A DNA stretch of 47,273 nucleotides from Nanobdellota archaeon (GTDB lineage Archaea; Nanobdellota; Nanobdellia; Pacearchaeales; GW2011-AR1). Below the pieces are notes generated by a model, which did not search any database, was not told the DNA's origin, and saw nothing but the letters and a program-made list of their open reading frames with translations. The position numbers and the translations under genes are program-made. Position 1 is the first letter of the stretch; every line of letters starts with the position of its first letter. Below are positions 3,677 through 42,340 of the stretch, one piece after another. Location: contig JAUSIC010000012.1 in the NCBI GenBank assembly GCA_030648285.1, positions 1 through 47,273 on the forward strand, in the 5' to 3' direction.

Positions 3677-3761
3677 GCGGGTGTGCCAGAGTTGGTCAAA
3701 TGGGCAGGACTTAAGATCCTGTGGCTTAGTGCCTGCGTAGGTTCGAACCCTATCACCCGCA
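3677..3761 (+). tRNA. tRNA-Leu (anticodon UAA)
   Basis: gcgggtg acceptor pairs cacccgc; anticodon loop ctTAAga; long variable arm; gttcgaacc T loop. Confidence 0.95.
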
Positions 3762-3869
3762 GTAATAATTTTAATATTGTGAGAACCTTAGGTTCGACGA
3801 GCAACTTCACGATAAGAACCAAAGGTTCCTAATACTTCCTATTAATATTTTTAGTGGGGTTGCGAACAT

Positions 3870-3888
3870 CCCTATCACCCGCAGTAAT
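3870..3888 (+). repeat. Duplicate of the tRNA-Leu 3' end
   Basis: ccctatcacccgcagtaat at 3748-3766 repeated exactly at 3870-3888. Confidence 0.9.
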
Positions 3889-3917: not shown

Positions 3918-4008
3918 TTAATAGAATAATTGAAGCCTTTTGTAGATATTTAAGTTGAACAAAGTCGTTTCAGATTAACCTTATTATTTATCTTGCGAAC
4001 GAAGTGAG
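3918..4008 (+). repeat. Dispersed intergenic repeat family, copy R1
   Basis: ttaatagaataattgaagccttttgtagat...ttaagttgaac...gtttcagattaacc...gcgaacgaagtgag. Confidence 0.85.
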
Positions 4009-13294: not shown

Positions 13295-13420
13295 ATTAGT
13301 TCTTTATTAAATATTAAAAATCATGTAGACTCCGCGCAATTTCACGAGAATAATCCCTAAGCGATTGAGTGAAGTTGGAAGTTGTAGGTTTGCTCAAGAG
13401 CAAGAAATTAGAAACTCAGT

Positions 13421-13678
13421 GTAGACTCAGAGGTTTGCTCAAAGAATACCAAGAAGTTTCCTTTAATCATTCTCAGTTCTGCTACCTGTTAAGCACCTTA
13501 TCAAATGTTTAGGGCTGCTCCGATCAAGGCCTGACCCATTTCGCATCTGCAAGATCGAAACAGACAAAACGTCAACGTCCGAATAAAGACTTTTTGACAA
13601 TCTTATCACTTACCTCCTTGCAGTCTGCCTAAAGCCCGTTTGCAAATGGCGTAGGGCTAATCCGCCGACCTAGTCTAC
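13421..13678 (-). ncRNA. Signal recognition particle (7S) RNA
   Basis: Minus strand contains GGGTCAGGCCTTGATCGGAGCAGCCC, the SRP helix 8 core; termini GTAGACT...AGTCTAC pair; Alu-like GGCG...CGCC and GCCC...GGGC near the 5' end; locally higher GC. Confidence 0.88.
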
Positions 13679-13764
13679 TAAAATACAACAAGAAATGACT
13701 TTTTAAGGGTTTTGGATAAACAAAACGTTTTTAAAGAATTATTTCATTGATTTATTATATACTC

Positions 13765-13812: not shown

Positions 13813-14352
13813 ATGGAAAGAGTGATAATATTTATTGATGGAAGTAATTTGTATCATATTATTAAGAGTTTATTTAATAATTCTAAAACCTTGATGGATT
13901 TTAATTTTGAAAAATTCGTTAAAAATTTATCTGGTGGAAAAAAATTAGTGAGAACTTACTATTATTCTGCTCCTCTTGATAGAAAGAAAGATGAAGAAAC
14001 TTACGCAAAACAACAAAAATTCTTTGAGAAATTGAAAAAACTTCCAGATTTTGAACTAGTTTTATGTAGAATGCAAAAAGATAAAATTGAGGGTAGAACA
14101 GTTTATTGTGTAAAAGAAGATGACATACATATAACTGTTGATATGGTAAAACTTGCATATAATGATGCTTATGACACGGCAATTCTTGTTTCTACTGATG
14201 GGGATTTTATTCCTGCAATAAATACTGTAAAAGAAAGAGGTAAGATAGTTGAAAATATTGGATTTGAAAACAAATTTTCATGGCACTTAAAACAAAAGAG
14301 TGATAGATTTAGAAAATTAACAAAACAAGAGTTAATAACTTTTTTTGATTAG
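13813..14352 (+). CDS. NYN/LabA-like (DUF88) PIN-fold protein
   Basis: MERVIIFIDGSNLYHII, DDIHITVDMVKLAYNDAYDTAILVSTDGDFIPAI acidic motifs. Confidence 0.88.
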   Translation: MERVIIFIDGSNLYHIIKSLFNNSKTLMDFNFEKFVKNLSGGKKLVRTYYYSAPLDRKKDEETYAKQQKFFEKLKKLPDFELVLCRMQKDKIEGRTVYCVKEDDIHITVDMVKLAYNDAYDTAILVSTDGDFIPAINTVKERGKIVENIGFENKFSWHLKQKSDRFRKLTKQELITFFD

Positions 14353-14434
14353 AATAATTGAAATCTATCATAGATGTTTAAGTTGAATAACATCGTTTTA
14401 GATTATCATAATAATAAATTTCGAACGAAGTGAG
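14349..14434 (+). repeat. Dispersed intergenic repeat, copy R2
   Basis: ttagaataattgaaatc...gatgtttaagttgaataacatcgttttagatta...tttcgaacgaagtgag. Confidence 0.85.
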
Positions 14435-16592: not shown

Positions 16593-16608
16593 TTTTGTTG
16601 GGGAAATG

Positions 16609-16697
16609 TTAATGAAAAAATTGAAGCCTTTTGTAAATGTTGAGCAGTTAAACATCGTTGTGTTTGATTATTTAAATGATAAATCTTGCGAAGCAAC
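16609..16697 (+). repeat. Dispersed intergenic repeat, copy R3 (diverged)
   Basis: ttaatgaaaaaattgaagccttttgtaaatgtt...aaacatcgttgtgtttgatta...aaatcttgcgaagcaac. Confidence 0.75.
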
Positions 16698-19146: not shown

Positions 19147-19196
19147 AATTAAGTTGAGGTTTGAGTAACTATATATTAATTCGAGCGATAGCGAGA
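19147..19196 (+). repeat. Dispersed intergenic repeat, partial copy R4
   Basis: aattaagttgaggtttgagtaactatatattaattcgagcgatagcgag; resembles R9b. Confidence 0.6.
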
Positions 19197-19299
19197 CATT
19201 CATAATCAAAATATTTAATAACATAATTCTCATTTTTTATCTATGAGCAAATAGGAAATTTGCCACAAATACAAAAATGGTGAAGAGGTTTTTTGCATA

Positions 19300-19461
19300 A
19301 TGAATAAAGAGGGTATATCTTTTCTTAATCAGTTAATCAGAAGTCTTGAAGAAACAGAAATAAAGCTTGAAGATGCATATAATAGCAAGGATTCTGAAAG
19401 ATTAACTAGATACAAGAGTTTCATGCTGGAAATTCAGAAAAAAATCGGAGAAGCATTATGA
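19300..19461 (+). CDS. 53-aa helical protein coupled to the pilus membrane protein
   Basis: MNKEGISFLNQLIRSLEETEIKLEDAYNSKDSERLTRYKSFMLEIQKKIGEAL*; stop overlaps next ATG (ATGA). Confidence 0.75.
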   Translation: MNKEGISFLNQLIRSLEETEIKLEDAYNSKDSERLTRYKSFMLEIQKKIGEAL

Positions 19462-21618: not shown

Positions 21619-21643
21619 CGATTACAACAGGCTTCACATTAAC
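21619..21643 (-). repeat. Dispersed intergenic repeat, fragment R10
   Basis: gattacaacaggcttcacattaac matches the terminal module of R7/R5. Confidence 0.5.
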
Positions 21644-23462: not shown

Positions 23463-23543
23463 ATGAAAAAATTCAAATTCCTCTACTCGGAACCCGAATT
23501 TTTTAAGAAACAAATAGAAATGAAAACAAAAGGAGAAATATGA
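23463..23543 (+). CDS. 26-aa leader-like ORF echoing the archease start
   Basis: MKKFKFLYSEPEFFKKQIEMKTKGEI*; first 21 nt 19/21 identical to archease start; ATGA overlap. Confidence 0.4.
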   Translation: MKKFKFLYSEPEFFKKQIEMKTKGEI

Positions 23544-23953
23544 AAAAATTTGAATTCCTCGAACATACTGCAGATGTAAAATTTCGAGCATTTGGAAAAA
23601 ATATAGAAGAAGTTTTTTCTAATTCTGCATTAGCAATGAAAGAAAAAATTTATGATGAGAAAATCAAGAAAAAGGCAATGAAAAAAATAAAAGTTCAGGG
23701 AAAAGATTTTGAGTCTCTTCTTTACATATTTCTTGAAAAATTCCTTTATCTTTTAGAGGGAGAAAACTTTATTTTTGACAAAATTAAAAAAATAAAAATA
23801 GACAAAGAAAAATTTAAGTTAGAAGCAGAAGTTTCAGGAGACAAGGCATCAAGTTATGATATTTCAAATCCTGTAAAAGCTGTAACTTACAATGAGATGT
23901 TTGTAAAGAAGGAAAGGGAGAAATGGATTAGCCAGGTTGTGTTGGATGTTTAG
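23540..23953 (+). CDS. Archease (RtcB cofactor)
   Basis: MKKFEFLEHTADVKFRAFGKNIEEVFSNSALAM; adjacent to RtcB. Confidence 0.92.
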   Translation: MKKFEFLEHTADVKFRAFGKNIEEVFSNSALAMKEKIYDEKIKKKAMKKIKVQGKDFESLLYIFLEKFLYLLEGENFIFDKIKKIKIDKEKFKLEAEVSGDKASSYDISNPVKAVTYNEMFVKKEREKWISQVVLDV

Positions 23954-23956
23954 ATG

Positions 23957-24046
23957 TCTGCTTCGCGAATATTGATGATTATGATAATCTAAAACGACGA
24001 TGTTAAGTTGAACAAAATTGACAACAGGCTTCAATTTTTCTATTAA
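23957..24046 (-). repeat. Dispersed intergenic repeat, copy R5
   Basis: Minus strand ttaatagaaaaattgaagcctgttgt...gttcaacttaacatcgtcgttttagattatcataa...ttcgcgaagcaga. Confidence 0.8.
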
Positions 24047-24103
24047 TTGTTTTCTATTCCATCAATTAAAAAATATTATAAACTTCTAGAAATTAACAAA
24101 TTT

Positions 24104-27001
<2,898 letters not shown>

Positions 27002-28634: not shown

Positions 28635-30341
28635 ATGCAAAAGAGGAAGACGAAACTATTAGTTTCTTTGATATTATTTATATTTTTAATCGGCTTTAGT
28701 TCTGCATTGACTTGCAGTGTATTAACACCAGCACAATGTAACTCTTTAACTCCAGCAGGACATGTCTTGATGAATTTCTCATCTGATATAAATGCTCATG
28801 GTGGAAAAGATTATACTAATCGTGTTTTATGCTGTGATCAAGGTAGTAATATTGCTTGTTCTGCCTTGACTAATCCACTTACAGGAGAACCAAAAAATAA
28901 AATTTTGGGGTTATCTACTTTAACTAATGGACATATAGAAGGACCTGATCAAAATCACTATCCAAGTACAGGAGATATATGTTATGAAGATTTAGATTGC
29001 ATTACAACAAATTTAGCATGTCCTACAGATCACTCTTTAGAACTATTGAAATTATCCTCTTCAACAAATGCTCATGAAGGAACAGGGACAGGATATCCAA
29101 CTAGAATATGCTGTGGTTCTGCATTATTACTTGGACAATCTTGTTCTCTCTCTTCTGCTTCTTGGGGAAGAACAGATGCTCATGATGATGAAATAGTTGC
29201 AATGAATGTCCAAGGAACATACTGCGGTGGACAAGTTACTTTTCAGATATACGAAGATGATTTGGTAAATGATGATGCTTTAACTCCTATTTTACAAGGC
29301 ACTTACCCTTCTAAAGATTGGCAATCTAAATGGACTTATTCTGGAGATGATGATTTAGGAAATGATGCAAGAAGTTATTATTTTATTGCTTCTGTTGCTG
29401 GTTCTCAAGTCACAAGCAATATATTAACTGTTTCAAAACAAACTATTCAAGAATGGTGTGCTGCTAATTCAATAGATGGATGCAGTGATTATTCTCAAGC
29501 ACAATGTTCAGAAAATCGTTGTGGAATAAACCTAGGATGCCCTTCAATGCAAACAGGAGAAACATGTAGTTGTGCATGGAGTACTGCAGTTACTCCTGCT
29601 TCTTGTAATCCTGTAATAATAGGTGCAACAGAAACAGATAGTGATGGAGATGGTTTAACAGATGATGAAGAAGATGTTGATGGAGATGGAATTGTCGATT
29701 CTGGTGAAACAAATCCTAATGATCCTGATACAGATAATGATGGATTTAGTGATAGTGAAGAAGTTGCTGCTGGAACAGATCCTTTAGACCCTGCAGATCA
29801 TCCATTACCAGATGATAATAACAACGACGGGGATGTCACTGATCCTGGAGATGATGCTGATGGAGATGGATTGATAAACAGCGTAGAAACAGATACAGGA
29901 ACTTATGTCAGTCCGACAAATACAGGAACAGACTCTAATGACTCTGATTCTGATAATGATGGATTTAGTGATGGTGACGAAGTCAGATTAGGAACAGACC
30001 CTAATGATGATTCTGATTTTCCTCGAGCAATAACAGGCAGAACAATAGGCAATAAAATAATTCATGTAATAGACACAGATACAGACGGATGTGATGATGG
30101 AGTATTAGAATACCAATGGTGGTGCGAATGGACAGGAGCTTCAGCAGATGATCGTCCTGGTGCAGAAGAATGTCCTATAAAAACTAATCCTAAACCTGAA
30201 TTCGCTTCATGCATTGCACAGGCACAATTGCCATTCTTTGGAACTTATCAATTCATAATAAGTTTTGTTTTAATATTAGGAATTTATTTCTTGATAGCGA
30301 AGATAAAGAAGAGAAAATTAGGGAAAGTGTTAATAGAATAA
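28635..30341 (+). CDS. Surface protein with thrombospondin-type-3-like Ca-binding repeats and C-terminal TM
   Basis: DSDGDGLTDDEEDVDGDGIVDSGETNPNDPDTDNDGFSDSEEVAAGTDPLDP; signal peptide; terminal TM. Confidence 0.85.
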   Translation: MQKRKTKLLVSLILFIFLIGFSSALTCSVLTPAQCNSLTPAGHVLMNFSSDINAHGGKDYTNRVLCCDQGSNIACSALTNPLTGEPKNKILGLSTLTNGHIEGPDQNHYPSTGDICYEDLDCITTNLACPTDHSLELLKLSSSTNAHEGTGTGYPTRICCGSALLLGQSCSLSSASWGRTDAHDDEIVAMNVQGTYCGGQVTFQIYEDDLVNDDALTPILQGTYPSKDWQSKWTYSGDDDLGNDARSYYFIASVAGSQVTSNILTVSKQTIQEWCAANSIDGCSDYSQAQCSENRCGINLGCPSMQTGETCSCAWSTAVTPASCNPVIIGATETDSDGDGLTDDEEDVDGDGIVDSGETNPNDPDTDNDGFSDSEEVAAGTDPLDPADHPLPDDNNNDGDVTDPGDDADGDGLINSVETDTGTYVSPTNTGTDSNDSDSDNDGFSDGDEVRLGTDPNDDSDFPRAITGRTIGNKIIHVIDTDTDGCDDGVLEYQWWCEWTGASADDRPGAEECPIKTNPKPEFASCIAQAQLPFFGTYQFIISFVLILGIYFLIAKIKKRKLGKVLIE

Positions 30342-30474
30342 TTGAAGCCTTTTGTAGATGTCATAAAGTTGAACCACTCGTTAAATATATATCATTAATT
30401 ATTTCTTAATGAAGAAATCTGTCGAAGACGATTTCGTAATAGTTTCTGTTTAGATTAACCTTATCAATAACATT
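30330..30474 (+). repeat. Dispersed intergenic repeat, copy R6 (expanded)
   Basis: First 30 nt identical to R1; shares agattaaccttat; extra internal AT-rich segment. Confidence 0.85.
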
Positions 30475-33779: not shown

Positions 33780-34187
33780 ATGTCAAAAAGAGGGAGAAAT
33801 TTAGGGAAGATAAAAGGTTTTACTATTCAGTTTCTTCCTTATTCTGAAGTAAGAGATTTGAACAGTGATGACAGAATAAAAAAAATACTTGGGATTGTTC
33901 TTGGAAACAGCATACTGATACTTCAGGGAAGATTAAAGACAGAAGAAGAAGCAAGACTGATTGGAGACACAATGGCTATGATTGATCATGTTAAAACATT
34001 CAGGGGAATTGAACTTGCTGTAATTTCCAGCAATGACAAGGCAGGATTTTTCGGAAAAATGAAAAGCGGGCTTGCAAATGCGCTTTCTGGCGGAGATTTG
34101 GGTGCGGTAACAATCATAGGACCTGCAACAATTGTAAAAGAAATGAAGCGAAACCCCAAAAAAATCGAACTTTTATTAAAACGATAA
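33780..34187 (+). CDS. DUF2073 family protein
   Basis: Recognised archaeal conserved family; between GTPase and Zn-ribbon protein. Confidence 0.75.
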   Translation: MSKRGRNLGKIKGFTIQFLPYSEVRDLNSDDRIKKILGIVLGNSILILQGRLKTEEEARLIGDTMAMIDHVKTFRGIELAVISSNDKAGFFGKMKSGLANALSGGDLGAVTIIGPATIVKEMKRNPKKIELLLKR

Positions 34188-34294: not shown

Positions 34295-34387
34295 GCTCAT
34301 TTCATTCGCAAAATTAATAATATAATTAATATGAAACGATGTTATTAAGTTGAACACGATTACAACAAACTTCAATTATTCTATTAA
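34295..34387 (-). repeat. Dispersed intergenic repeat, copy R7
   Basis: Minus strand ttaatagaataattgaagtttgttgtaatcgtgttcaacttaataacatcgtttc... Confidence 0.8.
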
Positions 34388-34562
34388 CCTTTCCCATTCA
34401 GCATTATGTTAAAATATATCTTCGTGAAGAGAAAATATTATATACTATTACGAATTTCTATAATAAATAAAATCTAAATTAATTTATAATGCCAATGTCA
34501 TCCCCTGATTTAGAAAGAATATTCACAAATAAAAATATAAATGTAGATAGTTAAATCAAAAG

Positions 34563-41001: not shown

Positions 41002-41112
41002 AGATAAAATAAGGAGTTAGGCTTTTTAAATATTTTTGTTTTATTTTTGAAGAAGAAATACTTGCTCGTAAATTGTTCGGAACCTCACCCACAGGGGATT
41101 ATACTGCAGATT

Positions 41113-41170
41113 CGTGAAATTCCTCATCACAAAAATTAATAATGAATTAATTTGAAACATCGTTATAACC
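41113..41170 (-). repeat. Dispersed intergenic repeat, partial copy R9a
   Basis: ctcatcacaaaaattaataatgaattaatttgaaacatcgttata resembles R7 in the same strand orientation. Confidence 0.55.
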
Positions 41171-41200
41171 TAAAGAAATTTATCCCTTTTTTGATAATTT

Positions 41201-41255
41201 TAAATTGAAATTTGAGTATTCAATTAACTATAAATTAATTTTCGAACGAAGTGAG
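41201..41255 (+). repeat. Dispersed intergenic repeat, partial copy R9b
   Basis: taaattgaaatttgagtattcaattaactataaattaattttcgaacgaagtgag; 3' module identical to R2. Confidence 0.7.
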
Positions 41256-42224: not shown

Positions 42225-42340
42225 TTAATAGAATAATTGAAATAGCCTCGTGCCACTCGGCACTCGGAATTGATAAATAGTTAATTTAGAAACGACGATG
42301 TTTAAATTGAACATGAGTATCTAATTAATTATAAAAATTA
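42225..42340 (+). repeat. Dispersed intergenic repeat, mosaic copy R8
   Basis: ttaatagaataattgaa 5' module followed by aacgacgatgtttaaattgaac (R5-like core, opposite relative orientation). Confidence 0.7.

Follow-up and report, generated by a model that had tools for sequence, protein, structure and literature searches.

The window analysed here is the whole of one contig (C2), 47,273 nucleotides long, from the genome of a Nanobdellota archaeon that is assembled into 621,814 bases on 25 contigs and is 84.7% complete. Gene positions follow our own longest-ORF calls, and the genes recognised in the window through Pfam include those for PRPP synthetase, archease and an intein-bearing RtcB. Rfam matches at gathering score in the window are two tRNAs only; an archaeal SRP RNA gene lies at 13419-13680 on the minus strand with E=1.6e-14 and 66 bits, below the Rfam gathering score of 96.5. 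The intein-interrupted gene for the RtcB RNA ligase (24047-27001, plus strand) adjoins the archease gene, and an OapB-domain protein is encoded at 33780-34187 (plus strand), adjoining the repeat copy at 34295. Elsewhere in the assembly, contig C16 matches the archaeal LSU and SSU rRNA models, in line with an archaeal genome whose size and gene content suggest a DPANN affiliation, and a group I intron match lies within an archaeal 23S rRNA gene (L023:5105-5441). Two elongation-factor-2-like genes, named by eye, are found on contigs C20 and C23 with proteins 79.6% identical, and the pair may represent paralogues or a contribution to the bin from another strain.

The spacers of this window hold related copies of an intergenic repeat assembled from a left module, L1 (GGGGAAAGGTTAATAGAATAATTGAAGYCTKTTGTARATGTT) or L2 (TTCATTGACATCTTGAG; also given as GGTTAATCTATATTGAGGTTCATTGACATCTTGAG), a short centre and a right module such as R (TTTTAGATTATCATTATTATCAATA plus a hairpin). 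The copy at 3918..4008 (+) has L1 at 3918-3950 and R at 3968-4008 with the hairpin GAACGAAGTGAG; both profiles match it, and it is 85% identical to the consensus by BLAST. Further L1-R copies on the plus strand lie at 14350..14434, which matches the R profile, is 94% identical to the query consensus and ends in TCGAACGAAGTGAG, and at 16607..16697, which matches both profiles and has the hairpin TTGC-GAA-GCAA. On the minus strand, an L1-R copy identified by the profiles at 23957..24046 separates archease (23540-23953) from RtcB and is inverted relative to both genes, and another at 34295..34390, found by the L1 profile, carries the hairpin GCGAATGAAATGAGC. The copy at 30328..30474 (+), also found by the L1 profile, combines L1 with an alternative Z-type right end (GAAATCTGTCGAAGACGATTTC hairpin) and contains the stop codon of the upstream gene (30339-30341). 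At 41113..41255 (+) a right-type end (41216-41255) includes an exact TCGAACGAAGTGAG at 41242-41255. The copy at 42225..42340 (+) is a composite in which an L1 start (42225-42244) is followed by an R on the opposite strand (high end 42291), with the hairpin CCGAGTGCC-GAGT-GGCACGAGG. The preliminary description listed ten such places, and the list is essentially complete, as the profiles add none in the window. Two of its entries, however, are degenerate fragments: a right-end piece at 19147..19196 (+), read from the sequence and under the profile threshold, with the hairpin TCGAGCGATAGCGAGA and without a left module, and an L1 piece (GTTAATGTGAAGCCTGTTGTAATCG) at 21619..21643 (-) with a weak match of E=0.24. 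A left module is present at seven of the ten, namely 3918, 14350, 16607, 23957 (-), 30328, 34295 (-) and 42225.

Two other dispersed sequences occur alongside these repeats. The first, a hairpin termed Y (GAGCAACTTCACGA...TAATCC...GTGGGGTTGCGA), has about 17 copies with compensatory stem changes in a stem scan; they neighbour tRNA genes, lie close to the SRP RNA gene and occur within leader ORFs and in repeat copies. One Y module, GCAACTTCACG...GTGGGGTTGC, with a 10-bp stem that includes G.U pairs, lies at 3801..3863 (+) just upstream of the copy at 3918..4008. It is adjoined by a second occurrence (3862-3885) of the tRNA-Leu(UAA) 3′ end CCCTATCACCCGCAGTAAT, about 115 nt downstream of the first (3745-3767). 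The stem scan places other Y hairpins at 13336-13378 (+) and 41079-41123 (-), the latter adjoining the copy at 41113..41255, and on other contigs. The second is a 5′ leader cassette that ends in GGAGGTATTTTGCATAATG or close variants at 35 places genome-wide, for example at 19226-19300 in the window, upstream of the gene at 19458, and at C11:13879 (-). It reads as a short ORF (e.g., MTEIGNFSTNTKLVRRYFA) in 29 of the 35 places, and in 33 its stop overlaps the next start (TAATG), which resembles a natural bicistronic leader. There was no clear match to the cassette in two relatives.

Size of the family and build of its members

That these blocks form a dispersed intergenic family, as the preliminary description proposed, is confirmed by shuffle controls and genome-wide counts. 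The motif TTAATAGAATAATTGAAGCC matches six times in the window with at most three mismatches, far above the 0.02 expected from shuffles, and 47 times in the genome with at most four mismatches, where ten shuffled motifs each gave 0-10 matches. An iterated profile recovered 52 copies of L1 genome-wide; L2 has 20 copies, and the R profile gave 37 matches at E<0.01. When left and right modules are merged, about 80 loci result (81 with the extra modules). An all-versus-all BLAST of the spacers at a loose threshold merged all of them, and its result was left out. The alternative that AT-rich spacers merely resemble one another by chance fits the fragments at 19147 and 21619, which are close to background, but it is refuted for the family by the same controls and counts, and we give it a negligible probability. 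The motif TCGAACGAAGTGAG taken alone is weak in the window (five matches versus two expected); genome-wide, with at most one mismatch, it has eight matches versus none for a reversed control, and it is one among many versions of the right-end hairpin.

The consensus order of the element is GGGGAARGGTTAATAGAATAATTGAAGYCTKTTGTARATGTT, centre, CGTTTTAGATTATCATTATTATCAATA and mini-hairpin, often with CTATTTTYCC after it. The centre is either 10 nt in one of two orientations (GTTCAACTTA or TAAGTTGAAC, varying among copies) or longer. In a typical copy a short centre that can be flipped links one left module, either L1 or L2, with a right module drawn from a small set and ending in a mini-hairpin; the element is non-coding and measures about 90-200 bp. 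L2 elements have the centre and right end in common with L1 elements, and the architectures are mosaic: L1-R (17), L2-R (11) and L1-Z (4) occur together with L2-X-R, L2-X-L1′, R′-L1-R and others, while 24 L1 and 6 L2 modules stand without a recognised partner.

The mini-hairpin is present in 35 of 45 right ends, compared with a mean of 12.9 (maximum 25) in shuffled sequence, and it is formed by 22 distinct stems; the fold persists even as the letters that form it vary. Its loops are GAA, GATA, GTAA, GTGA, GTCA and TTTA, and 14 copies have tandem G.A. Work cited in PMC6895277 describes d(GCGAAGC) and GNA-loop DNA hairpins as extraordinarily stable, and for this reason folding of the right end as single-stranded DNA is favoured, as judged from the loop types only. 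The preliminary description had placed a stem-loop at the centre, GATGTT pairing with AACATC. This stem did not hold up: 43.8% of cells pair versus 43.4% in shuffles, and the loop occurs among copies in both orientations.

A structured non-coding RNA family, another reading offered at the outset, finds its encouragement in the submodules, given that the Y hairpin includes G.U pairs and shows compensatory changes and that X and Z look hairpin-like by eye. A fold of the whole element was rejected, however. Copies fold no better than other spacers (mean z of about -0.1 on the plus strand and -0.3 on the minus strand, with -0.5 for control intergenic DNA), and RNAalifold predicts 0 pairs, leaving no covarying consensus structure across copies. 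There is also no Rfam match at gathering score at the window copies. Together with the unsupported central stem and the random orientation in tandem gaps described below, these results make an RNA family very improbable.

Position relative to genes

The copies had been described as lying mostly 3′ of genes in both orientations, and this is borne out across the genome. Among gaps of at least 50 nt, elements occupy 24 of the 40 convergent ones, 46 of the 184 tandem ones and 7 of the 85 divergent ones, and when only gaps of at least 120 nt are considered, elements remain rarer in divergent gaps than in the rest (p=0.007). Certain copies begin a few bases from a stop codon. The 54 L1 copies comprise 35 in tandem gaps (16 in gene sense and 19 antisense), 13 in convergent gaps, 5 in divergent gaps and 1 at a contig edge. 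Because tandem gaps show no preferred orientation, an RNA element that acts from one strand is disfavoured, whereas a role in both directions is conceivable. The suggested role as a 3′-UTR or termination element therefore fares unevenly: the location fits, but orientation in tandem gaps is random and no difference in T-tract or poly-T terminator signature was seen at gene 3′ ends.

A related possibility is that the copies, wherever they came from, have been exapted as bidirectional 3′-end elements, each now kept by selection as protein-bound terminators, insulators or stabilisers of mRNA 3′ ends. Copies do lie near gene 3′ ends, and convergent gaps of at least 50 nt mostly carry one; by eye, most of those without an element are either short or occupied by RNA genes or by ORFs that gene calling missed. 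Such an element is not required, however, because all 51 convergent pairs with a gap below 50 nt lack one, and avoidance of promoters would by itself account for the location. The lack of a T-tract difference also counts against this rival. It is kept alive mainly by the constraint on the left core, several columns of which are invariant across the 52 copies (heterogeneity of column conservation, p=5e-52) while the copies themselves have diverged. Identity between copies reaches only about 88% in the best pairs and no near-identical copies exist, so nothing points to recent movement. For the 16 closest pairs, mismatches amount to 6.6% in the core versus 18% outside it, an outside value that takes in some flank, and the core is largely kept also in copies picked by the right module alone. 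This pattern does not resemble passive decay and is surprising for transposon copies that are decaying. Taken as a whole, exaptation strikes us as a possible account, although one on the unlikely side.

Insertion, lineage restriction and the search for a mover

The family was sought by DNA search in 58 genomes, a set that includes its own genome and no second genome of the same genus, and by profile search in 115 genomes of the same family; outside its own genome, both gave isolated matches at chance level only. Candidate matches in relatives G020 and G051 were rejected, as no L/R match above background exists at these loci, and a scan of other genomes' contigs gave two isolated matches, in a Bacteroidetes MAG and a Spirochaetia MAG, without a second module. 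In this genome 113 of 378 spacers have at least five similar partners, compared with 7 of 182 (AT-rich strings) and 0 of 111 in the parts of two relatives that were searched; no comparable intergenic families were found in the searched parts of G011 and G002. The preliminary description looked to related strains for conservation of the repeats. None was found at genus level, and the family is regarded as real despite this because of its genome-wide copy number and the evidence for insertion.

That evidence comes from gap lengths at syntenic junctions. At 27 junctions that bear an element here, the median gap is 206 nt in this genome versus 45 nt in two relatives, whereas at 24 element-free junctions with an own gap of at least 100 nt the medians are 207.5 and 182.5 nt (one-sided Mann-Whitney p=2e-4 for the two kinds of junction). 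An earlier tabulation of 26 element junctions found the own gap longer in 25, with a median difference of 145 nt, and three convergent pairs measure 157, 120 and 135 nt here versus 2, -15 and -11 nt in G002. Since the gaps in relatives are short at element junctions and long at element-free ones, the elements are DNA added relative to these relatives, as shown by gap lengths in genomes too divergent for exact empty sites.

The Y1/HUH, DDE_Tnp_1, rve and IS1595 transposase families (PF01797, PF01609, PF00665 and PF12762) are absent from the 85%-complete genome, and the PF01797 (Y1/RAYT) search does give matches in control genomes. The TnpB zinc ribbon PF07282 has one match, below cut-off, and none of the largest paralogous protein groups looks like a transposase by eye. 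A single tyrosine recombinase of 275 aa is encoded; its presence in G011 and G002, both free of the repeats, counts against it as the mover. A classical DDE-type MITE derived from a lost insertion sequence, with the terminal inverted repeats GGGGAAA.../...TTTCCCC, would agree with the purine-rich left ends that by eye mirror pyrimidine-rich right ends, and with the reversed right module upstream of about 11 of the 54 L1 copies. The inverted repeats are short and imperfect, however, two different left modules are used, no DDE gene is present among the families tested, and no clear target-site duplication was seen by eye at the junctions read. We consider this origin unlikely.

Interpretation and relation to known systems

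The explanation that we judge probable is a lineage-specific family of short, non-coding, non-autonomous insertion elements with a BIME/MITE-like mosaic build, a reading based on about 80 pieces that sit at gene 3′ ends and that the tested relatives lack. Of the three readings first offered, a non-autonomous mobile element is thus the best supported, in view of the short junctions in relatives and the occurrence of both orientations. A recombinase acting in trans would have taken the left core and the right hairpin as its signals, probably in the form of folded single-stranded DNA, and insertions would have persisted only at sites where they disrupted neither a promoter nor a reading frame. 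This mover may be extinct, may be encoded in the 15% of the genome that the assembly lacks, or may belong to a type that is not recognised. The near-invariance of the left core in copies that have otherwise diverged suggests that something still binds them, and copies were possibly retained for a 3′-end function. A broader scenario, which we put forward as speculative and doubtful, is that a mosaic family with no recognisable transposase spread into a streamlined archaeal lineage and became bound 3′-end punctuation between transcription units, alongside a second dispersed cassette that equips gene starts with a leader peptide and a ribosome-binding site. Dispersed repeats fill about a quarter of the spacer in this genome of ~0.6 Mb, which is roughly 10% spacer, while two relatives carry little or no comparable repeat DNA. 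The family is therefore a case in which to ask how small elements multiply when no transposase is apparent and whether they turn into 3′-end signals. Its conserved core, and its exchangeable hairpins with loops of DNA type, offer concrete handles for identifying the mover or a protein that binds the copies.

Integron attC sites, which belong to a cassette array beside an integron integrase, were considered and rejected: the repeats are scattered over the whole genome in either orientation, and the single tyrosine recombinase has kin in repeat-free genomes. According to PMC3733652, REP/BIME sequences (see also PMC2817692) are short extragenic palindromes in mosaic combinations with alternative complementary stem residues; they are situated mainly between convergent or unidirectional genes, and many lie no more than 20 bp from a 3′ end. 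The archaeal family is similar in its many short extragenic palindromes (the hairpins in 35 of 45 right ends), its mosaic build and its location near 3′ ends. It differs in that the 45 right ends have no consistent GTAG/CGTC tag by eye, that the genome, at 85% completeness, is without a RAYT (Y1, PF01797) transposase and that the elements are mostly a non-palindromic conserved module. Like MITEs (reviewed in PMC10969869), the elements are short, non-coding, dispersed and, from the gap comparison, inserted relative to relatives. Unlike MITEs, they have two interchangeable left modules and no parent IS was found in the 85%-complete genome; as for MITE ends, GGGGAAA/TTTCCCC is seen by eye, and no duplication was seen in the junctions read. 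The family is therefore a member of neither group: it lacks the GTAG/CGTC tag and RAYT of the first, and in comparison with the second it has neither a parent IS nor proven inverted repeats or duplication. Pneumococcal BOX elements have a modular organisation built from blocks, and the archaeal repeat resembles them as a modular intergenic repeat. It differs from BOX (PMC3049150, which covers BOX and RUP) in sequence and domain of life, and its modules are exchanged, not simply iterated. Rickettsia palindromic elements are hairpin units that occur in several contexts. Here the likeness lies with the Y hairpin, which is found beside tRNA and SRP RNA genes and within leader ORFs, whereas the L/R elements differ in being intergenic.
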